A DNA stretch of 64,000 bases, from NCBI RefSeq assembly GCF_900105175.1, contig NZ_LT629771.1, positions 3,729,501 through 3,793,500 of the forward strand, read 5' to 3'. Below, in pieces: positions 29,000 to 48,241 of this stretch. Below the pieces are notes generated by a model. The model was given only the letters and a program-made list of their open reading frames with translations, was not told the DNA's origin and made no database searches. How positions within the stretch are numbered: position 1 is the first letter of the stretch; every line of letters begins with the position of its first letter. Origin of the DNA: Jiangella sp. DSM 45060. Lineage in GTDB: Bacteria; Actinomycetota; Actinomycetes; Jiangellales; Jiangellaceae. Position numbers and translations under genes: made by a program.

Positions 29000-29383
29000 C
29001 TATCGAGCCGGCGGCAGCCGCGGCACGCCGGCCGGTCGTCCGTGCTCCAGCCGGTCCTTCAGCTCGTGGACGCGCGTCTTGAAGGCGACGGTGTACCGGC
29101 GGGCCAGGCGCTCCGGCCGGGCCCGCGGCGACGTCGGGTCGGCGCGCAGGAACCAGTGCACCAGGACGCCGTCGCCGTACCGTTCCAGCCACAGCTCGGT
29201 GCTGCCGGCCAGCTCGCCGCCGATCGTCCAGCGGACGCCCTCGAGGCCGCGGTCCTGCTGGACGGCGAGCGTCAGCCGCGGCCACCAGGCGCGCGCGACG
29301 GCGGGGTCGCGGACGTACGCGGCCAGCTCGGCCCGCTCGGCGACCACGAACGTGTCGTCCATGAGATCGATCGCCGGGGCCAT
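29000..29383 (-). CDS. START-like (polyketide cyclase-related) protein
   Basis: The 127-residue protein reads DDTFVVAERAELAAYVRDP, WWPRLTLAVQQDRGLEGVRW, then GGELAGSTELWLERYGDGVLVHWFLRAD. This is the pattern of actinobacterial START-like proteins, shorter than the neighbour and with a basic tail. A hydrophobic ligand is expected but unknown. ATG 29383 is used; ATG 29362 (MDDTF) would fit the family start equally well. It is divergent from the cytochrome b paralogue. Confidence 0.7.
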   Translation of the reverse strand: MAPAIDLMDDTFVVAERAELAAYVRDPAVARAWWPRLTLAVQQDRGLEGVRWTIGGELAGSTELWLERYGDGVLVHWFLRADPTSPRARPERLARRYTVAFKTRVHELKDRLEHGRPAGVPRLPPAR

Positions 29384-29472
29384 CAGCGCAGCCTACGGAC
29401 GTGATGGAGGTCATGTCACAATCCGTGCCGCGCATCGGTCCTAGTAGTAGGAGCGATCGCGAGGAGTGCGAC

Positions 29473-31026
29473 ATGCCCGACCTGACGAGACACCGGCTGG
29501 TCACCGCGGTGGTCGGCCTGGCCGACCGGCACGGACGACCGGCCCGGATCCGCGGCCCGCGGCGGTGGACGGACCTGTTCGTCCCGCTGGCCGTGGTCAG
29601 CTTCCTGCTGGTGCTGGTGTCCGGAATGCTGCTGGCGTTCTGGTTCGAGCCGTCCATGCGGCCGGTCGTCTACGCCGGCGACTACGCGCCGCTGCGCGGC
29701 GTGACGATGTCCGAGGCGTACGCGTCGACGGTGCGCATCTCGATGGAGGTGCCGGGCGGCCTGCTGGTCCGCCAGGTGCACCACTGGGCGTCGCTGGTGT
29801 TCATCGCGGCGCTGTCGGCGCACCTGCTGCGGGTGTTCCTGGCCGGCGCGTTCCGCGGCTACCGCCGCCTCGTCTGGCTGATCCTGCTGGCGCTGCTGGT
29901 GCTGAGCATCGCCGAGGCGTACCTCGGCCACTCGCTGCCGGACGACCTGCAGTCCGGCACCGGCCTGCGGGTCACCGAGGGGTACCTGCTGGCCACGCCG
30001 GTCGTGGGCACCTGGCTGTCGTGGCTGGTGTTCGGCGACGAGTTCCCCGGCGACCAGATCATCGGCCGGCTGAACACTGTGCACGTGTGGGTGCTCCCGG
30101 TGCTGATCGTGGGCCTGGGCGCCGCCTGGGCGCTGCTGGCGTACCGGCGCTGGCGTGCCGCGCCGCCGGCCGACGGCGACCCGCCGCGGCGGTACGCCGT
30201 CCGCATGGGCGGGCTGGCGCTGGTGGTCTCCGGCGCGATCGTCGCGATGTCGGCGCTCGTGCAGGTCAACCCGGTCTGGCTGTGGGGGCCGTTCGACGCC
30301 TCGCAGGCGCCGGCCGGCAGCCGTCCGCCGTGGTATCTCGGGTTCCTCGACGGCGCGGTGCGGCTGATGCCTCCGTGGGAGGTGGACGTGTTCGGCTACA
30401 CGCTGACGCTGAGCGTCCTGATCCCGGTCATGGTGCTGCCCGGGGTGCTGCTGGGGACGCTCGCGCTGTACCCGTGGTTCGAGCAGTGGGCCACCCGCGA
30501 CCGCCGCGACCCCGACGTCCTCGACCGGCCCCGCGACCTGCCGGTGCGCACCGCGCTGGTGGCGGCGTTCGTCGCGTTCTACCTGGTGCTGTGGATCGCC
30601 GGCGCCACCGATGTCGTCGCCACGCTGCTGCACGTCCCGCTCGACCCGCTGGTCCGGTTCCTGCAGGTGGCCGTCGTCGTCGTGCCGCCGCTGGCGTTCT
30701 GGGTGACGAAGCGGATCCTGCTGGGGCTGCGGCTGCGCGACCTGGACGAGCTGCGGCACGGGCACGCCACCGGCATCGTCGTCGTCAGTCCCGAGGGCGG
30801 GTTCAGCGAGCTGCACCGGCCGCTGACGGCTCAGGAGGCGCAGCGGCGGGCGCCGCACGAGGCACTGGTGCCGGCCGGCGCCGTCGCGGCCTCCGACGAG
30901 CACGGCGTCCCGAACCCGCGCTACCGAGCCGACCGGCCCCGGGCGCTCGCGTCGCGGTTCTACTTCGCCGATCTTCCCGGCAACCGACCCGTCTCCGGCG
31001 ACGTCCAAGTGAAGGAGCATGGTTGA
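29473..31026 (+). CDS. Orphan cytochrome b, QcrB paralogue lacking one haem ligand
   Basis: This 517-residue membrane protein aligns end to end with QcrB (46601-48241), from FEPSM/FKPTM and GVTMSEAYAST through HSLPDDLQSGTGLR, NPVWLWGP, WYLGFLDGAVRLMPPWE to VPNPRYRADRP. Helix B keeps both haem histidines (His103, His117). Helix D keeps His204, but the position matching QcrB His224 is Trp219. Haem bH should thus lose an axial ligand. No qcrA or qcrC neighbours exist here; two serpin genes follow after 21 bases. ATG 29473 follows GAGGAGTGCGAC. Electron transfer through the b haems is doubtful. Confidence 0.9.
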   Translation: MPDLTRHRLVTAVVGLADRHGRPARIRGPRRWTDLFVPLAVVSFLLVLVSGMLLAFWFEPSMRPVVYAGDYAPLRGVTMSEAYASTVRISMEVPGGLLVRQVHHWASLVFIAALSAHLLRVFLAGAFRGYRRLVWLILLALLVLSIAEAYLGHSLPDDLQSGTGLRVTEGYLLATPVVGTWLSWLVFGDEFPGDQIIGRLNTVHVWVLPVLIVGLGAAWALLAYRRWRAAPPADGDPPRRYAVRMGGLALVVSGAIVAMSALVQVNPVWLWGPFDASQAPAGSRPPWYLGFLDGAVRLMPPWEVDVFGYTLTLSVLIPVMVLPGVLLGTLALYPWFEQWATRDRRDPDVLDRPRDLPVRTALVAAFVAFYLVLWIAGATDVVATLLHVPLDPLVRFLQVAVVVVPPLAFWVTKRILLGLRLRDLDELRHGHATGIVVVSPEGGFSELHRPLTAQEAQRRAPHEALVPAGAVAASDEHGVPNPRYRADRPRALASRFYFADLPGNRPVSGDVQVKEHG

Positions 31027-31047
31027 CTCGTCCCCGGAGGTGCGCTC

Positions 31048-32340
31048 ATGTCCCTGCCCCGCGTGGCCGGCGCGGTGCTCGCCGGCGCGTTGCTGCTGGC
31101 CGGCTGCGGTTCCGCGGCCGACCACGGGACTGACGACACATCCACCGGCACCCCCGCGGCCGGCGCCCCGTCCACCGAGGCGCCGGCCGCCGATCCGGGG
31201 CCGGCGCCGCGCATCGACGTCGTCGCCGACCTCGCGCCCGCCGACGCCGGCACCGTCGCGGCATCGGTCAACCAGTTCGGCTTCGACCTGCTCGGCCAGC
31301 TGAGCGACGGCACCCAGAACACCGTCACCTCCCCCGTCTCGGTGGCGTCGCTGCTGGCCATGGTGCTGGCCGGAGCCGGCGGCGACACCGCCTCCGCCAT
31401 GGCGGGCACCCTGCACCTCGACGACCCGCGTGACGTCCGGGTCGGTGCCCTGCTGGACCAGCTGGCCGACACCACCGACGTCACGCTGGCGCCGGCCAAC
31501 GCGCTGTGGACGCAGCAGGGCGTGCCGTTCGAGGCCGACTACCTGTCCTTCGTCCGCGACTCCTTCGGCGCGACCATCGACGAAGCCGACCTCGGGTCGC
31601 AGGACACCGCCGACGACATCGACGCCTGGGTGCGCGACGCCACCGAGGACCGCATCGACGGCATCGCCGCCGACCTCGGCCTGCCCGACCCCGAGGCGGC
31701 GCTGGTGCTGGTCAACGCGGTGCACTTCCTCGGCACGTGGACCACGCAGTTCGACCCCGCCGACACCCAGACGCAGGCGTTCACGCTGCCCGACGCGAGT
31801 ACCGCCGACGTGCCGCTGATGTTCCTGCGCGAGCAGACACTGCCGTTCGTCCAGCGCGACGGCTATTCCATGCTGCGGCTGCCCTACGGCGCCGACGGCC
31901 GCTACGGCATGGAGATCCTGCTGCCCGACGACCCCGCCGGCCTGCCGCGGCTGCTGTCGTCCCTCGACGCCGCCGAGTGGTCGGCCGCCGTGGGCGCGCT
32001 GGCGCCACTGGAGCTGCAGACCGTCGCGGTGCCGAAGTTCGAGCTCGAATGGGACGCCGACCTCGGCGACGCGCTGACGGCGCTCGGCATGGGCCCCGCC
32101 TTCCAGAACGCCGACTTCCGGCCGATGTCGGCCTACCCGCAGGCGCTCGACACCGTCGTGCACAAGACCTACATCCGGGTCGACGAAGCCGGCACCGAGG
32201 CCGCGGCCGTCACCGGCGGCGTCACCCGCAGCTCGGCCGGCCAGAGCTTCCGCGCCGACCGTCCGTTCGCGTTCACCATCTCCGACAGCCAGACCGGCGC
32301 CATCGTCTTCCTCGGGGCGGTGACCGACCCGCGCGGCTGA
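31048..32340 (+). CDS. Lipoprotein serpin (serine protease inhibitor) 1
   Basis: The 430-residue protein has a lipobox LLAGC (Cys20) and a low-complexity linker to residue 55. The serpin fold follows: NTVTSPVSVASLLAMVLAGAGG, ANALWTQ, LVNAVHFLGTW, VPLMF, and the conserved C-terminus DRPFAFTISDSQTGAIVFLG. The hinge DEAGTEAAAVTGG (from residue 379) is the small-residue hinge of inhibitory serpins; the following loop is VTRSSAGQS, about residues 392-400. It should trap serine proteases outside the cell. It forms an operon with the cytochrome b paralogue and the next serpin. RBS GGAGGTG precedes ATG 31048. Confidence 0.95.
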   Translation: MSLPRVAGAVLAGALLLAGCGSAADHGTDDTSTGTPAAGAPSTEAPAADPGPAPRIDVVADLAPADAGTVAASVNQFGFDLLGQLSDGTQNTVTSPVSVASLLAMVLAGAGGDTASAMAGTLHLDDPRDVRVGALLDQLADTTDVTLAPANALWTQQGVPFEADYLSFVRDSFGATIDEADLGSQDTADDIDAWVRDATEDRIDGIAADLGLPDPEAALVLVNAVHFLGTWTTQFDPADTQTQAFTLPDASTADVPLMFLREQTLPFVQRDGYSMLRLPYGADGRYGMEILLPDDPAGLPRLLSSLDAAEWSAAVGALAPLELQTVAVPKFELEWDADLGDALTALGMGPAFQNADFRPMSAYPQALDTVVHKTYIRVDEAGTEAAAVTGGVTRSSAGQSFRADRPFAFTISDSQTGAIVFLGAVTDPRG

Positions 32341-32361
32341 GGCACCACGGTTGGGGGCGAC

Positions 32362-33597
32362 ATGTCGTACACCCGGTTGATCGCTGGCCTGCTGGCCGGC
32401 GGGATCCTGGCCACGGCCTGCGGTACGGCCACCGCACCGGACACGCGGCCCACCGGCGGCCCCGCGTCGCTGCGGCTGGTGGCCGACCTCGACCCGGCCG
32501 ACGCCGGCGCCGTCGGCGCGTCAGTCAACCAGTTCGGTTTCGACCTGGTGGCCCAGGTCGGCGACGGCACCGAGAACATCGTCACGTCGCCGGTGTCCGC
32601 GGCCGCGCTGCTGGCCATGGTGCTGGCCGGGGCCGGCGGGCCGACGGCGGACGAGATGGCCGCAGTCCTGCACCTGGAGGACTCCCGCGACGTCCGGGTC
32701 GGCGCGCTGCTGCGCGAGCTGGCCGACACCGACGACGTCACGCTCTCCGTCGCCAACGCCCTGTGGGCACGCGACGGCTATCCGTTCACCGACAGCTACC
32801 TCGCGTTCGCCCGCGACTCCTTCGGCGCCACCGTCGACGAGGCCGACCTCGCCTCGCAGGACACCGCCGACGAGATCGACGCCTGGGTCCGCGAGCAGAC
32901 GGAGGACCGCATCGACGACATCGCCGCCGACCTCGGCCTGCCGAGCGGCGACGCCGTCCTCGTGCTGCTGAACGCGGTCTACTTCCTCGGCACCTGGACC
33001 ACTCAGTTCGACCCCGAGGACACCCGCGACGGCGGCTTCCGGCTGGCCGACGGCACCACGGTGACGGTGCCGATCATGCATCTCCCCTCGACCTCCCTGT
33101 CGCTGGCTCAGCGCGACGGCTACTCCATGCTGCGGCTCCCCTACGGCGAGGACGAGCGCTACGCCATGGAGATCCTGCTTCCCGACGACGACAGCGCGCT
33201 TCCGGACCTACTGGCGTCGCTCGACGCCACCGAGTGGGCCGCCGCCGTCGGCGAGCTGCGGGAGCAACACGTGAGCGAGCTGGCGCTGCCCCGCTTCGAG
33301 CTGGAATGGAAAGCGAACCTCAACGAGCCGCTCCGCGCCCTCGGCATGCACGACGCGTTCGGCGGGGGTGACTTCACACCGATGTCGCCGGAGAACCCGT
33401 TTCTGGCCACCGTCGTGCAGAAGACCTACCTATGGGTCGACGAGGCCGGCACCGAGGCGGCCGCCGTCACCGGCGGGATGATGGCGGAGTCGGCGGGCAG
33501 TGGGTTCCGCGTGGACCGGCCGTTCGCGTTCACCATCTCCGACAGCCAGACCGGGACGATCCTGTTCCTCGGTACCGTCGCCGACCCGCGCGGCTGA
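32362..33597 (+). CDS. Lipoprotein serpin 2 (tandem duplicate)
   Basis: This 411-residue protein is close to serpin 1 along its length (for example DAWVREQTEDRIDDIAADLGL and RDGYSMLRLPYGEDERYAMEI). The lipobox is ATAC (Cys20) with a shorter linker. The inhibitory hinge DEAGTEAAAVTGG (from residue 360) is identical, but the exposed loop is MMAESAGSG, where serpin 1 has VTRSSAGQS. The pair thus shares a scaffold but offers different bait sequences, likely to different proteases. The 21-base gaps upstream of both serpin genes are the same length. The duplication was probably local. Confidence 0.94.
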   Translation: MSYTRLIAGLLAGGILATACGTATAPDTRPTGGPASLRLVADLDPADAGAVGASVNQFGFDLVAQVGDGTENIVTSPVSAAALLAMVLAGAGGPTADEMAAVLHLEDSRDVRVGALLRELADTDDVTLSVANALWARDGYPFTDSYLAFARDSFGATVDEADLASQDTADEIDAWVREQTEDRIDDIAADLGLPSGDAVLVLLNAVYFLGTWTTQFDPEDTRDGGFRLADGTTVTVPIMHLPSTSLSLAQRDGYSMLRLPYGEDERYAMEILLPDDDSALPDLLASLDATEWAAAVGELREQHVSELALPRFELEWKANLNEPLRALGMHDAFGGGDFTPMSPENPFLATVVQKTYLWVDEAGTEAAAVTGGMMAESAGSGFRVDRPFAFTISDSQTGTILFLGTVADPRG

Positions 33598-33691
33598 CGG
33601 CCGCGATGTCCGTTTCGACGGCGGAATGGCACTGCCCGAATCGCGCCTATAACGTACTTCCGGCGGGTGCGCGACCCGAAGCGAAGGCGGC

Positions 33692-33735
33692 GTCACAGCG
33701 TCACAGTCAGTTTCCGACCCGTCACTGCCAGTGAC
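33692..33735. promoter_or_regulatory. GTCAC/GTGAC boxes upstream of the sensor kinase
   Basis: GTCAC occurs at 33692, 33700 and 33721, and GTGAC at 33731. The last two are ten bases apart and form an inverted pair; the 33700-to-33721 step is 21 bases. They lie about 100-145 bases before the kinase start. The same box in the same helical phase recurs at 36064-36139. Confidence 0.45.
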
Positions 33736-33837
33736 GGACGGCCCTGTGGCCCGGATCACGTTTTTGCCATCTCGAACTACGGGCACATGCCGCGATTCGG
33801 AACTCGTGGATCGAAGTTTTACGGCAAACTGCCGCCT

Positions 33838-35409
33838 GTGAGTGTGTGGGCCCCCGATTCCGTCCAGCGTCATTGGCATGGCGTGGCCGTCGCGCGCCCC
33901 GGCATGCTCGCACTCGTCATCGCCCTGACCGGGTCGGCCCGCAGCGTCGTCACCGACTGGTGGTGGCTGGGCGCACTCGCCCTCGTCGCGCTGGCGGCGG
34001 CCATCTCCGAGCGCATCCTGCCGCGCACCCGCGTGCGCGTGGCCGCGGAGATGGCGCTCGCGTCGATCATCGTCGGACTCGGGCTGCCCGAGGCCTACCT
34101 CGCCCTGCCCTACCTGCTGGTGCCGGCGTTCGCCGCCGGGCTGGCCGGCAGCATCATGGGCACCGCCATCACCACGCTCACCGGCGCGATCGGCCTGGCC
34201 ATCGGCAACGTACTGGCCGGCGGCAACCTGATCGAGCTGCCCACGTTCGGCAGCGTCTCCGTCTGGGTCGTCATCATCTTCGCCACCGGCGCCATCGGCG
34301 CGTGGGTGCTGCGGCTCGACAGCATCCAGGTCGCCGACGGCGGACGCTACGCCGCCGCGTACCGGCTGCTGTCCGAGCTGCGGGTGGTGTCGCGCCGGCT
34401 CTCCGTCGGCCTCGACCCGGGCACGCTGGCGGAGGGCCTGCTCGACAACGTCGCCGGGCCGCTCGCCGTTCGCCGGGCCGCGCTGCTGGTGCGGCGCGAG
34501 GGCGGCAACCTGTTCCCGCTCGCCCACCGCGGCGAGGACGACGGCTGGCTGCTCGGCGCCGAGCGCGACCCCGTCGTCCTCGAGGCGTGGAGCAGCGAGA
34601 CACCCGCCTGGACCCCCAACGGCCGCCGCGGCTACCGCGTCGTGCTGCCGCTGCGGGTCGGGTCGCGCACCATGGGCGTCATCGTCGCCGACGTGCCCGA
34701 CCAGGTCTCGTCCGACGAGCTGCAGGTGCTCGTCGGGTCCACCGACGAGGGCGCGCTGCGGCTGGAGACCGCGCTGCTCTTCGACGAGGTGCGCGAACTG
34801 GCCACCCGCGAGGAGCGGCGCCGGCTGGCCCGCGAGATCCACGACGGCATCGCCCAGGAGCTGACCTCGCTGGGCTACCTCGTCGACGACCTCATCGCGC
34901 GCACCACCGACGCCGACGCGAAGTCGCTGTCGACCACCCTGCGGCAGGAGCTCACCCGCATCCTGTCGAACCTGCGGCACTCGATCTTCGACCTGCGCAG
35001 CGACCTCGACCACGACGGCGGCCTCGGCACGTCACTGTCGGCCTACGCCCGTCAGGTGGGCGCCCAGGCCGGGCTGAAGGTCCACCTCGTGCACCAGGAA
35101 GAGCACGATCGCCTGCGCCCCGAGGTCGAGGCCGAGCTGCTGCGCATCGGCCAGGAGGCCATCACCAACGTCCGCAAACACGCCAAGGCGAAGAACCTGT
35201 GGGTGACCGTCGCGGTCAGCCCGCCCAACGCGCAGATTCGCGTCGTCGATGACGGCATGGGCATGCGAGAGCAGCCACGTGGCCGCTACGGTCTGGAGAT
35301 CATGGCCGAGCGGGCCCGGCGAGTCGGCGCAAAGCTCGAGATCACAGACAGGCCCGAGAGCGGTACGGTCGTCGACGTATCCCTCGGCAACGTTTCTGGA
35401 GAGGGGTAA
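33838..35409 (+). CDS. Sensor histidine kinase (HisKA_3, membrane-bound)
   Basis: The 523-residue kinase has five to six membrane helices (about residues 20-160), a GAF-like region (about 185-330), the dimerisation/phosphorylation helix with REIHDGIAQELTSLGY, and a HATPase domain with EAITNVRKHAKA, DDGMGM and GLEIMAERARRVGA. It should signal to the LuxR regulator five bases downstream. GTG 33838 is preferred to ATG 33787: the intervening codons (CGA, GGA, ACT, CGT, TTT, AAA, CCT) lack the G/C third bases seen in real genes here. The stimulus is not evident; placement next to the serpins may be coincidental. Confidence 0.9.
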   Translation: MSVWAPDSVQRHWHGVAVARPGMLALVIALTGSARSVVTDWWWLGALALVALAAAISERILPRTRVRVAAEMALASIIVGLGLPEAYLALPYLLVPAFAAGLAGSIMGTAITTLTGAIGLAIGNVLAGGNLIELPTFGSVSVWVVIIFATGAIGAWVLRLDSIQVADGGRYAAAYRLLSELRVVSRRLSVGLDPGTLAEGLLDNVAGPLAVRRAALLVRREGGNLFPLAHRGEDDGWLLGAERDPVVLEAWSSETPAWTPNGRRGYRVVLPLRVGSRTMGVIVADVPDQVSSDELQVLVGSTDEGALRLETALLFDEVRELATREERRRLAREIHDGIAQELTSLGYLVDDLIARTTDADAKSLSTTLRQELTRILSNLRHSIFDLRSDLDHDGGLGTSLSAYARQVGAQAGLKVHLVHQEEHDRLRPEVEAELLRIGQEAITNVRKHAKAKNLWVTVAVSPPNAQIRVVDDGMGMREQPRGRYGLEIMAERARRVGAKLEITDRPESGTVVDVSLGNVSGEG

Positions 35410-35414
35410 CAACC

Positions 35415-36062
35415 GTGCCCATGTCGGTCATGCTCGTGGACGACCATGAGCTCATCCGCCAAGGCCTGCGCCGCGCCTTCGAGCGAGACGCCGGATTCAC
35501 CGTGGTCGGCGAGGCGGCCACCGTCGCAGAGGCGGCGAAGCTCGCTGAGGCCACACAGCCCACGGTGGCGGTCATCGACATCCGGCTGCCCGATGGCAGC
35601 GGCCTGGAGCTGGCTCAGCGGCTCCGGGAGACCCGCGGCGACATCGGCCTGGTCATCCTCACCATGTACGCCGGCGACGACCACCTGTTCGGCGCCCTCG
35701 ACGCGGGCGCCTCGGCGTTCGTGCCGAAGAGCTCCCCCAGCGACGACGTCGTCGCCGCAGCCCGCCACGCCGCCGCCACCCCGTCCGCCTTCGTCGCCGA
35801 CGGCCTGGCCGAGGCCATGCAGCGCCGCCTGCACCCCACCGGGCCGCAGCTGACCCGGCGCGAGCGCGAGGTACTCGACCTCCTCGCCGACGGCCTCGGC
35901 GTGTCGAGCATCGCCCGCAAGCTGTACATCAGCGAGTCGACCACGAAGACCCACGTCTCGAAGCTCTACGACAAGCTCAACGCGTCCAACCGGGCCCAGG
36001 CGATCATGGCCGCCGTACGAGCTGGGCTGTTGAGCCATGGCGAAGAGGCGCAACCGGGGTAA
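35415..36062 (+). CDS. LuxR/NarL-family response regulator
   Basis: The 215-residue regulator has a receiver (residues 3-120; phosphoacceptor Asp in VAVIDIRLPDGSG, acidic pair VDDHE, Lys in FVPKSSP) and a C-terminal four-helix LuxR domain (LTRREREVLDLLADGLGVSSIARKLYISESTTKTHVSKLYDKL). It is the partner of the kinase just upstream. GTG 35415 is chosen because GAGAGGGG lies eight bases before it; ATG 35421 is an alternative. Downstream is a dense array of GTGAC boxes. Confidence 0.93.
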   Translation: MPMSVMLVDDHELIRQGLRRAFERDAGFTVVGEAATVAEAAKLAEATQPTVAVIDIRLPDGSGLELAQRLRETRGDIGLVILTMYAGDDHLFGALDAGASAFVPKSSPSDDVVAAARHAAATPSAFVADGLAEAMQRRLHPTGPQLTRREREVLDLLADGLGVSSIARKLYISESTTKTHVSKLYDKLNASNRAQAIMAAVRAGLLSHGEEAQPG

Positions 36063-44670: not shown

Positions 44671-45522
44671 GTGCCCAGATCGTTGCCCGGCCGACCCCGC
44701 GGCTCGCGGATCGGGCGGCTGCTGTCCACCCGGCGCAGGCACCCGCTCGCCGCGATCGCCGTGCTGGTGGCCGTCCTGTTCACCGCCGGCGGCGCGTACG
44801 CCGCGCTGGCGCCGTCGACGTCGCAGAACGTCCAGGCCGCCTCCTCCACGCAGATCGAGGAGGGCCGGCAGCTGTTCGCCGTCGGCTGTTCCTCCTGCCA
44901 CGGCCTGAACGGCGAGGGCCAGATCAACGCCAACGGCGACGTCCTCGGCCCGTCGCTGATCGGCGTCGGCGCCGCCTCGGTCGACTTCCAGGTCGGCACC
45001 GGCCGCATGCCGCTGGCCGCGCCGTCCGCGCAGGCCATCCGCAAGCCGGTCTCGTACACGCAGGACCAGATCGACGCGCTCTCCGCGTTCGTCGCCTCGC
45101 TGGCGCCCGGCCCGGCCGAGCCCGACGAGCAGTACCTCGACCCGTCCCAGGGCGACGTCGCGCGCGGCGGCGAGCTGTTCCGCACCAACTGCTCCCAGTG
45201 CCACAACACCACCGGTCAGGGTGGTGCTCTGACGATGGGCCAGTTCGCGCCGAACCTCACCGGCGTCGAGCCGAGGCACATCTACGAAGCCATGCTCACC
45301 GGCCCGCAGGCCATGCCGGTGTTCAACGACGCGACGGTCACCCCCGAGGACAAGCGCGACATCATCGCGTTCCTCGACAGCGTGCAGAACGAGGCGGACC
45401 CGGGTGGCCTCGCCATCGGCCGGGCCGGCCCGGTCGCCGAAGGTCTCTGGGCGTGGCTGGTCGGTATCGGCCTGCTGATCGGCATGGCCACCTGGATCGT
45501 GACGAGGTCGTCGAAGGCATGA
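44671..45522 (+). CDS. qcrC: Di-haem cytochrome c subunit of the bc1-type complex
   Basis: The 283-residue subunit has an N-terminal membrane anchor ([21 protein letters not shown]), two haem c sites (CSSCH at 73-77 and CSQCH at 174-178) and a C-terminal membrane helix ([18 protein letters not shown]). The two haems carry electrons from the Rieske centre to the aa3 oxidase, which replaces a soluble cytochrome c. GAGGAGAGAC precedes GTG 44671. It ends in ATGA overlap with qcrA. Confidence 0.95.
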
Positions 45523-46604
45523 GCACGCACAACGTGAACCCCAACGGTGACGAGCACGCGGTCGTTCCCCACGGCGAGCACGCCGTGGTGCCGGCCGACC
45601 CGATCGCCGACCCCGGACTCCACCACGAGGACACCCGGCTCACCGACGTCGACGACAAGGCCGAGCGGCGCGCCGAGCGGCAGGTCGCCGGCATGTTCAC
45701 GCTGGCCGCGCTGCTGACCGTCGCGTTCATCGTCTTCTACGTGGTCGTCGGGATCCACCCCGACGACCCCGAGAACGGCGTGAACATCGGCGACGTCCAG
45801 GTGTCGAACCTGACGCTCGGACTCACGCTGGGCCTCGCGCTGTTCCTCGTCGGCGCCGGCGCCGTCCAGTGGGCGCGGTCGCTAATGACGTCCCCCGAGG
45901 TCGTGCACGAGCGGCACGAGCTGCGCAGCGACGACGAGACCCGCGCGGCCGCGCTGAACGACTTCGAGGTCGGCACCGAGGAGACCGGCTTCGGCCGGCG
46001 CAAGCTGATCCGCAACTCGCTGCTGGGCGCGCTGGCGCTGCTGCCGCTGCCCGCGGTGATCATGCTGCGCGATCTCGGCCCCAACACCGGCGGGACGCCG
46101 GCCCAGCGCAAGGAGCACACCATCTGGGCCGAGGGCGTGCGCGTCCTCACCGACGTCACGTTCATGCCCATCAGGGCCGCCGACCTCGAGATCGGCCAGT
46201 TGGTCAACGCCATGCCGGCGACGTTCGAGGACCTCCCCGAGCACGGGCCCGAGCGCATCAACGAGCGGGCGAAGTCGCCGGTCATGCTGGTGCGCATGCT
46301 GCCCGAGGACATCCACATCGCGCCGGGCCGCGAGAACTGGGGCGTCGACGGCATCCTCGCGTACTCCAAGATCTGCACGCACGTCGGTTGCCCGATCAGC
46401 CTCTACGAGCAGACGACGCACCACATGCTCTGCCCGTGCCACCAGTCGACGTTCGACCTCTCGGACAACGGCAAGGTGATCTTCGGCCCGGCGACGCGGA
46501 GTCTCCCGCAGCTGCCGATCGCCGTAGACTCTGAGGGCTACCTGATCGCACAGAGCGACTTCACCGAGCCCGTGGGGCCGAGCTACTGGGAGCGCACGCG
46601 ATGA
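45519..46604 (+). CDS. qcrA: Rieske iron-sulfur subunit of the bc1-type complex
   Basis: The 361-residue protein has three membrane helices (about 58-79, 97-117 and 166-184), longer than the single helix of most Rieske proteins, as usual for actinobacterial QcrA. The [2Fe-2S] ligands are in CTHVGC (Cys286, His288) and CPCHQS (Cys305, His308), with Cys291 and Cys307 as the disulfide. It takes electrons from menaquinol and passes them to QcrC. It overlaps both neighbours by four bases. Confidence 0.96.
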   Translation: MSTHNVNPNGDEHAVVPHGEHAVVPADPIADPGLHHEDTRLTDVDDKAERRAERQVAGMFTLAALLTVAFIVFYVVVGIHPDDPENGVNIGDVQVSNLTLGLTLGLALFLVGAGAVQWARSLMTSPEVVHERHELRSDDETRAAALNDFEVGTEETGFGRRKLIRNSLLGALALLPLPAVIMLRDLGPNTGGTPAQRKEHTIWAEGVRVLTDVTFMPIRAADLEIGQLVNAMPATFEDLPEHGPERINERAKSPVMLVRMLPEDIHIAPGRENWGVDGILAYSKICTHVGCPISLYEQTTHHMLCPCHQSTFDLSDNGKVIFGPATRSLPQLPIAVDSEGYLIAQSDFTEPVGPSYWERTR

Positions 46605-48241
46605 GCGCCATCGTCAACGGTGCAGGCAAGGTCGTCGACTTCGTCGACCAGCGGATCACCGCGTCCAACTGGCTGAAGCGCAACATCCGCAAGGTCTTCC
46701 CCGACCACTGGTCGTTCCTGCTCGGGGAGATCGCGCTGTTCAGCTTCATCATGATCCTGCTGTCGGGTGTGTTCCTGACGCTCTGGTTCAAGCCGACCAT
46801 GGCGCACATCGCCTACGAGGGCGCCTACCTCCCGATGCGCGGCGTCGGCATGTCCGAGGCGTACGCGTCGACGCTGGAGCTCTCGTTCGAGGTGCGCGGC
46901 GGCCTGCTGATGCGTCAGGTGCACCACTGGGGCGCGCTGATCTTCCTGGCCGCGATGTCGGCGCACATGCTGCGGGTGTTCTTCACCGGCGCGTTCCGCA
47001 AGCCGCGCGAGATCAACTGGCTGATCGGTGTGGTGCTGCTGGTCCTGGGCGTGGCGGCCGGCTTCACCGGCTACTCGCTCCCCGACGACCTGCTGTCGGG
47101 CACCGGCCTGCGGATCATCGAGGGCGGCATGCTCGCCATCCCGATCGTCGGCACCTACATGTCGTCGTTCCTGTTCGGCGGTGAGTATCCGGGCGACGAC
47201 ATCATCGCCAGGCTCTACCCCCTGCACATCCTGCTCGTTCCGGGGCTCATCCTGGCGCTGGTGACGGCGCACCTGATGATCCTCTGGTACCAGAAGCACA
47301 CCCACTGGGGCGGCCCGGGCAAGACGAACAACAACGTCGCCGGCGCGCCGTTCTTCCCGATCTACGTGGCCAAGGCCGGTGGCTTCCAGTTCATCGTCAT
47401 GGGCGTCATCGTCCTGCTGGCGGCGACGATCCAGATCAACCCGGTCTGGCTGTGGGGCCCGTACGATCCATCCGTCGTCTCGGCCGGCACCCAGCCCGAC
47501 TGGTACGTCGGCTTCCTCGACGGCGCTCTACGTGTCATGCCTCCATGGGAGTTCTACGTCTTCGGTCACCCGGTCACGATGAGCGTGCTGATCCCGGCGA
47601 TCCTGCTGCCCGGCATCATCCTGACGCCGCTCGCGCTGTACCCATGGCTCGAGCAGAAGGCGACCGGCGACACCCGCGAGCACCACGTGCTGGACCGGCC
47701 GCGCAACGTGCCGGTGCGGACGGGCATCGGTGTGGCGTTCATCGTCTTCTACATCCTGCTGTGGATCGCCGGCGGTAACGACTTCTTCGCGACGATCCTG
47801 GAGATCCCGGTCAACTGGATCACCTGGTTCATCCGCATCGGCATCTTCGTCCTGCCACCACTGGCGTTCATCATGACGAAGCGGATCTGCCTGGGTCTGC
47901 AGCGCCGCGACCGCGACAAGGTGATGCACGGCCGCGAGACCGGCATCGTCATGGTCAGCCCCGACGGCGAGTTCTCGGAGCTGCACGCGCCGCTGTCGCA
48001 GTCGCAGGCCTACCAGCTGACGTGGCACGAGCGGCAACTGCCGTCCGACCCCGGCCCCGCGACGGACGTCAACGGCATCCCGAACCCGGACTACCGCGCC
48101 AAGCGTGTGCAGGCCCGTCTCTCCCGCTTCTACTTCGGCGACGTCGTGCAGAAGCCGACGCGGGAAGAGCTCGAGGCCGCCCACCACGACGGGCACGGCT
48201 CCGACTCTGCCCGCGACGAACTGCCGAGCGGTCAGCAGTAG
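46601..48241 (+). CDS. qcrB: Cytochrome b subunit of the bc1-type complex
   Basis: The 546-residue subunit holds the two b haems: His108/His122 in helix B (RQVHHWGALIFLAAMSAHM) and His209/His224 in helix D. The quinol-site region reads MPPWEFYVFG. The C-terminal extension (DPGPATDVNGIPNPDYRAKRV) is typical of actinobacterial QcrB. It oxidises menaquinol. A paralogue with Trp in place of His224 is encoded at 29473-31026. The gene ends the ctaE-qcrCAB operon; a hairpin follows. Confidence 0.96.
   Translation: MSAIVNGAGKVVDFVDQRITASNWLKRNIRKVFPDHWSFLLGEIALFSFIMILLSGVFLTLWFKPTMAHIAYEGAYLPMRGVGMSEAYASTLELSFEVRGGLLMRQVHHWGALIFLAAMSAHMLRVFFTGAFRKPREINWLIGVVLLVLGVAAGFTGYSLPDDLLSGTGLRIIEGGMLAIPIVGTYMSSFLFGGEYPGDDIIARLYPLHILLVPGLILALVTAHLMILWYQKHTHWGGPGKTNNNVAGAPFFPIYVAKAGGFQFIVMGVIVLLAATIQINPVWLWGPYDPSVVSAGTQPDWYVGFLDGALRVMPPWEFYVFGHPVTMSVLIPAILLPGIILTPLALYPWLEQKATGDTREHHVLDRPRNVPVRTGIGVAFIVFYILLWIAGGNDFFATILEIPVNWITWFIRIGIFVLPPLAFIMTKRICLGLQRRDRDKVMHGRETGIVMVSPDGEFSELHAPLSQSQAYQLTWHERQLPSDPGPATDVNGIPNPDYRAKRVQARLSRFYFGDVVQKPTREELEAAHHDGHGSDSARDELPSGQQ

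Follow-up and report, generated by a model that had tools for sequence, protein, structure and literature searches.

Why should a gene for a QcrB-like cytochrome b, standing apart from the genes of its usual partners, be followed by two genes for lipoprotein serpins? The locus that raises this question lies in the window, by which we mean the whole 64-kb stretch of DNA analysed here, a part of the 7.49-Mb single-contig genome of Jiangella sp. DSM 45060, which has named Jiangella species among its relatives. The initial annotation had described three genes on one strand with two 21-nt gaps, and the open reading frames match that description exactly: qcrB2 (29473..31026, plus strand), encoding a QcrB-like cytochrome b of 517 aa recognized by Pfam, alignment and tree, is followed by the serpin genes serA (31048..32340, plus strand) and serB (32362..33597, plus strand). 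The qcrB2–serpin–serpin row is confirmed, and so is the orphan status of qcrB2, which neither qcrA nor qcrC adjoins. Two features that had been missed, a broken heme bH site and an ECF41-type promoter, say more than the gene linkage does, and both recur in orphan cytochromes b that have no serpins.

A genus-wide, Jiangella-specific assembly

The qcrB2–serpin cassette is bordered on the left by a gene for a 127-aa protein (29000..29383, minus strand; no Pfam match) and on the right by a membrane sensor histidine kinase-like open reading frame (33667..35409, plus strand), which was recognized by sequence motifs, has no Pfam match and probably has its true start internally, at 33789 or 33846. The latter is followed by a gene for a NarL/LuxR-type response regulator (35415..36062, plus strand; Pfam Response_reg and GerE), which is kept together with the kinase gene both in Jiangella and in the sister genera. 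The canonical qcrA (45198-46604) and qcrB (46601-48241), which together span 45198..48241 on the plus strand, lie outside the cassette, 14 kb downstream of qcrB2 in the same window, with the whole canonical set at 44-48 kb; they served as the paralogue reference (HHHH at the heme positions, and PDWY).

We compared the locus across Jiangella and its sister genera. In all 12 Jiangella genomes qcrB2 is followed by serpins (the locus is split over contigs in G006). The gap between qcrB2 and serA is 21-24 nt in nine of these genomes and about 100-150 nt in three. The number of intact serpins per genome varies from one to three: a clade A copy is present in 12 of 12, the extra copies vary, and some are degraded: G001 has a remnant, one copy in G008 has a premature stop and has lost an internal stretch, and one in G004 is truncated at its N terminus. 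In one Jiangella genome (G003; L067 3867-6805) two added genes, for a 688-aa regulator-like and a 308-aa hydrolase-like protein, separate serpin B from the histidine kinase.

In the eight sister-genus genomes that have the region (G012 and G015-G021), the site is empty: there is no cytochrome b and no serpin, and the left flank gene directly adjoins the histidine kinase/response regulator pair. Since the flanks are intact around an empty site, the cassette is specific to Jiangella and not conserved across genera; it is a genus-wide assembly. Four sister-genus genomes do have QcrB2-like orphans (G016, G018, G020 and G021), located elsewhere and without serpins, and three have related lipoprotein serpins (G012, G015 and G017), located elsewhere and without a cytochrome b. 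Outside Jiangella, none of the QcrB2-like genes observed had a serpin nearby. The order of genes in related genomes had been proposed as the means to tell a system from a local accident. At the level of the genus the answer is for conservation (12 of 12), across genera the order is absent (eight of eight sites), and the conserved order is by itself weak functional evidence, because synteny extends over the entire region in Jiangella.

Linkage of serpins and QcrB across genera was also considered and rejected, as only one (G102) of 69 serpin-bearing genomes outside the family has a serpin less than 10 kb from qcrB. In that genome, which belongs to another family, a lipoprotein serpin (L146 6085-7410, G102:C120) lies beside ctaC-ctaD-ctaF, about 5 kb from the canonical qcrB.

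QcrB2 has kept heme bL ligands and lost a heme bH ligand

QcrB2 matches the Pfam family Cytochrom_B_N_2 (1.2e-39, 136 bits), is 51% identical to canonical QcrB and scores 494.9 bits against the NCBIfam model of actinobacterial QcrB (NF050120), slightly below the cut-off of 500. Homology covers the cytochrome b domains and is full-length to QcrB of the actinobacterial bc1-aa3 supercomplex (7q21_B, 6adq_B and 6hwh_b; E 1.9e-101 to 7q21_B), with the bL histidines present. Unlike QcrB of the bc1 complex, QcrB2 lacks the complete set of four heme histidines, the PEWY or PD(W/F)Y motif, and adjoining qcrA and qcrC genes. We favour the ATG as start codon: the promoter described below lies between it and an in-frame GTG at 29401, and GAGGAG precedes the ATG.

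Helices B and D of cytochrome b supply two histidines each, the first of each pair serving heme bL, on the outer side, and the second heme bH. As seen from the alignment, both bL histidines are kept in all 12 Jiangella QcrB2 proteins, and the helix-D bH histidine is replaced in all 12 (by W, R, Y, Q, V or A; Trp in the window copy). The helix-B bH histidine is also replaced in five (by Q or Y) and kept in seven. The Qo motif is PPWY in 12 of 12, as well as in the four sister-genus orphans. In contrast, all 57 canonical copies checked (32 reference copies and 25 further ones, namely 24 found by profile search in other genera and the third copy of G019) have HHHH and PD(W/F)Y. Among the sister orphans the helix-D bH histidine is absent in three of four, G021 keeping all four histidines, and two of these orphans have a histidine three residues further along helix D. 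In the tree, QcrB2 groups with the sister orphans in a clade that is supported at 100/100 and excludes canonical QcrB; all 16 members of this clade keep the bL histidines and have PPWY, and 15 of 16 have lost a heme bH histidine.

The ratio omega was 0.14-0.33 for qcrB2 versus 0.09-0.16 for canonical qcrB, that is, about two to three times higher in most pairs; qcrB2 is under purifying selection and is less constrained than qcrB. An AlphaFold2 model of QcrB2 built from 8 sequences had a pLDDT of 40, too low for use. The acid of the Qo motif has been proposed to accept the second proton from quinol (PMC8361435). A normal Q cycle is improbable for a protein with these residues, and QcrB2 is most likely a redox protein that carries one heme and faces quinol. 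We infer the absence of heme bH from the ligand residues; partial heme binding at this site is possible, as the bH histidine of helix B is still there in seven Jiangella copies.

An ECF41-type promoter sequence precedes qcrB2

The consensus promoter of ECF41 sigma factors is TGTCACA-n16-CGTC (Wecke 2012, PMC3426412). Upstream of qcrB2, the sole long block that is invariant in 12 of 12 Jiangella genomes includes TGTCACA, and in the window the site reads TGTCACA-n16-GGTC (29414..29440, plus strand), 32 nt upstream of the qcrB2 ATG. The -35 element is identical in all 12 genomes, the spacer is 16 nt (17 in one), and the -10 element is NGTC, mostly GGTC rather than CGTC. We scored the site as an ECF41-type promoter on a pattern of -35 TGTCACA, a spacer of 16 ± 1 nt and -10 CGTC, the last being NGTC here. 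It is the single match of the pattern in the 64-kb window; the whole genome has 15 matches versus 5 for the reversed control, and several of them adjoin ECF41-like sigma genes or oxidoreductases. A scan for sigma-70 promoters gave no matches. The motif was absent from the 400 nt upstream of 25 canonical qcrB copies, a soft control given that canonical qcrB lies inside an operon. A Fisher value calculated for the association takes no account of common descent and is not to be read as a fair probability.

All four sister orphans carry the motif, with at most one mismatch in the -35 element, and they are divergent from sigma genes that exceed the NCBIfam cut-offs for both SigX4 and SigJ. The TGTCACA-n16-NGTC of qcrB2 and the divergent position of the sister orphans beside a SigJ/ECF41 sigma gene are both likenesses to the described ECF41 (SigJ-type) regulons (PMC3426412). 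The known targets in those regulons, and the only ones detectable according to that study, are carboxymuconolactone decarboxylases, oxidoreductases and epimerases; we found neither a cytochrome b nor a serpin as an ECF41 target in the open-access literature searched. In Jiangella no ECF41 sigma gene adjoins qcrB2, and orphan ECF41 genes with no target beside them have also been described (PMC3426412). The sister ECF41 gene has its nearest Jiangella orthologue far from the cassette, and this was found in only eight of the 12 genomes; 6-12 ECF41-like sigmas are candidate regulators of qcrB2. The three cassette genes share a strand and are separated by short gaps, and a scan for terminator-like sites, which is weak in high-GC DNA, found none between them; this layout is consistent with an operon.

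A second orphan lineage in other families

Extra QcrB copies in other families show the same type of heme-site change. Five orphans, from three families (f36, f42 and f47), came top of a profile search: G110, G216, G218, G289 and G360. The search profile was built from G216, G289 and G360, so that their rank is given by construction, and G110 and G218 are new finds. All five keep the bL histidines and have lost both bH histidines (replaced by Q/R or L/A), and four of five keep PDWY. In a tree that included G216, G289 and G360, these three formed a clade separate from that of the Jiangellaceae orphans.

The ECF41-type motif is present in five of five, at the head of the gene or operon: directly 5' of the cytochrome b gene in G218, G289 and G360, at the head of an oxidoreductase–cytochrome b–SigJ run in G216, and before a small gene upstream of the cytochrome b gene in G110. 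Taken over all nine non-Jiangella orphans, a SigJ/ECF41 sigma gene adjoins five, those of the four sister-genus genomes and that of G216.

Two of these loci have further content of their own. The run in G216 (L180 2154-6808, G216:C1) consists of genes for a pyridine nucleotide-disulphide oxidoreductase, the orphan cytochrome b, a SigJ/ECF41 sigma factor and an epimerase-like protein, and contains two ECF41-type promoters. In G110 (L216 2678-4855, G110:C1) a subtilase-domain (Peptidase_S8) gene lies about 76 nt after the bH-less orphan cytochrome b gene on the same strand, and this run has an ECF41-type promoter at its head.

The serpins have an inhibitory-type hinge

Serpins A and B match Pfam Serpin (PF00079) with 4.5e-87 (293 bits) and 1.1e-91 (308 bits), respectively, over positions 2-370 of the 370 of the profile, and both open with a lipobox signal peptide (LLAGC and ATAC). 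The nearest solved relative of serpin B by sequence is the miropin-type serpin 5ncs (E 3.8e-51). Both window serpins carry the hinge EAGTEAAAVTGG, and all cassette copies that extend over the loop have ExGTEAA. The hinge of inhibitory serpins has the consensus ExGTEAAAA (quoted in PMC8233489), and the ExGTEAAAV of the cassette is close to it, agreeing with ExGTEAAA and small residues.

The RCL reads ...TRSSAG in serpin A and ...MMAESAG in serpin B. The TR(S/T)S(A/G)G loop of serpin A is largely kept in most Jiangella copies, which led us to reject, for copy A, a hypervariable loop of the arms-race kind; copies B and C differ, and serpin B also varies in copy number within the genus. Such a pattern fits a stable target for serpin A and divided targets for B and C. 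The gene serA is under purifying selection (omega 0.27-0.40). From these features we consider the serpins most likely to be surface-anchored serine protease inhibitors, induced together with QcrB2.

The cassette proteins resemble miropin, siropin, the B. longum serpin and conserpin in having a full serpin domain with an inhibitory-type hinge, and membrane-anchored prokaryotic serpins have been described before (PMC8233489). They are unlike known bacterial serpins in being tandem lipoprotein copies behind a cytochrome b gene and in having a short reactive loop. The earlier remark that bacterial serpins are uncommon holds in part, as, of 394 genomes sampled from the class, 107 have a serpin above the Pfam cut-off. 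We found no open-access paper that deals with Jiangella and a serpin together. A third, weakly serpin-like frame of 452 aa lies far from the cassette (L003 1501-1818; L004, G000:C1:6203635-6204705), and weak matches of this kind occur in most genomes of the family. Streptomyces smaragdinus (L113 5830-7167) has a lipoprotein serpin that is 59% identical to serpin A, with no adjoining cytochrome b gene.

Discussion

The reading that we favour, and regard as probable though well short of certain, is that the locus is an ECF41-controlled envelope-stress operon encoding a cytochrome b, probably with a single heme, together with lipid-anchored serpins of the inhibitory type. The genes qcrB2-serA-serB would form one transcription unit driven by an ECF41 (SigJ-type) sigma factor. 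QcrB2 would belong to an ECF41-associated family of orphan cytochromes b that left the bc1 complex, a departure read from the missing Rieske and QcrC partners, PPWY in place of the Qo motif, and the broken bH ligand set beside a kept bL site. It would probably hold a single heme and interact with quinol near the outer membrane face, as a redox relay or sensor at times of stress. The Jiangella ancestor may have brought qcrB2 and the lipoprotein serpins together at one chromosomal site. Judging by their hinge, the serpins would trap serine proteases on the outer face by the suicide mechanism, so that one stress signal would induce both the redox component in the membrane and the protease inhibitors at the surface.

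A chance joining, already raised in the initial annotation, would mean that the serpins came to lie downstream of an unrelated cytochrome b gene in the Jiangella ancestor and were then frozen there, with promoters of their own and no shared role. We think this unlikely, yet worth serious attention: it would account for the region-wide synteny in the genus, the lack of serpin-QcrB2 linkage outside it, the gaps of 100-150 nt in three genomes, and the extra serpins that come and go (G001, G008 and G004). Against it stand the gap of 21-24 nt, with a ribosome-binding-site-like sequence, in nine of 12 genomes, the lack of a terminator-like site between the genes, and a serpin A that is present in 12 of 12 and under purifying selection.

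The other early suggestion, an anchor in the membrane or a sensor through which proteolysis at the surface is controlled, would have QcrB2 bind the serpins or be guarded by them at the outer face. The sister genera, with QcrB2 relatives that have no serpins and serpin relatives that have no QcrB2, make such a direct unit rather improbable, even if the topology is compatible with it (from what is known of cytochrome b, the retained bL site faces outwards, and the serpins are lipoproteins) and a subtilase-domain gene follows an orphan cytochrome b gene in another family (G110). That QcrB2 is a spare subunit which takes the place of QcrB in the bc1-aa3 supercomplex under certain conditions, we regard as very improbable: its 51% identity to canonical QcrB and the closeness of the two genes on the chromosome are set against the loss of a bH ligand in 12 of 12, the change of PDWY to PPWY, a score below the NCBIfam cut-off for actinobacterial QcrB (494.9 versus 500 bits) and, in most pairs, a roughly two- to threefold higher omega than for qcrB. 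Shared stress control is simpler than an anchor or sensor, and for the envelope-stress operon we infer co-regulation of QcrB2 and the serpins, with no claim of a physical complex.

ECF41/SigJ sigma factors are widespread and include SigJ of Mycobacterium tuberculosis; to our knowledge, few of their targets are known. A cytochrome b target with a broken bH site, found in two tree-separated lineages and four families, would offer a biochemical handle on the ECF41/SigJ stimulus and an instance of cytochrome b put to a new use away from the Q cycle. For bacterial serpins, whose functions have been described as enigmatic, the Jiangella cassette would likewise be a testable regulatory setting. The stand-alone cytochromes b of other actinobacteria, with their heme-site loss and promoter, point to an as yet undescribed, putatively stress-controlled membrane protein. 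As a tentative proposal, actinobacteria may have at least two separate lineages of bL-only orphan cytochromes b that are dedicated ECF41/SigJ targets and form an envelope-stress redox arm, which in Jiangella lipoprotein serpins may have linked to the control of proteolysis at the surface.
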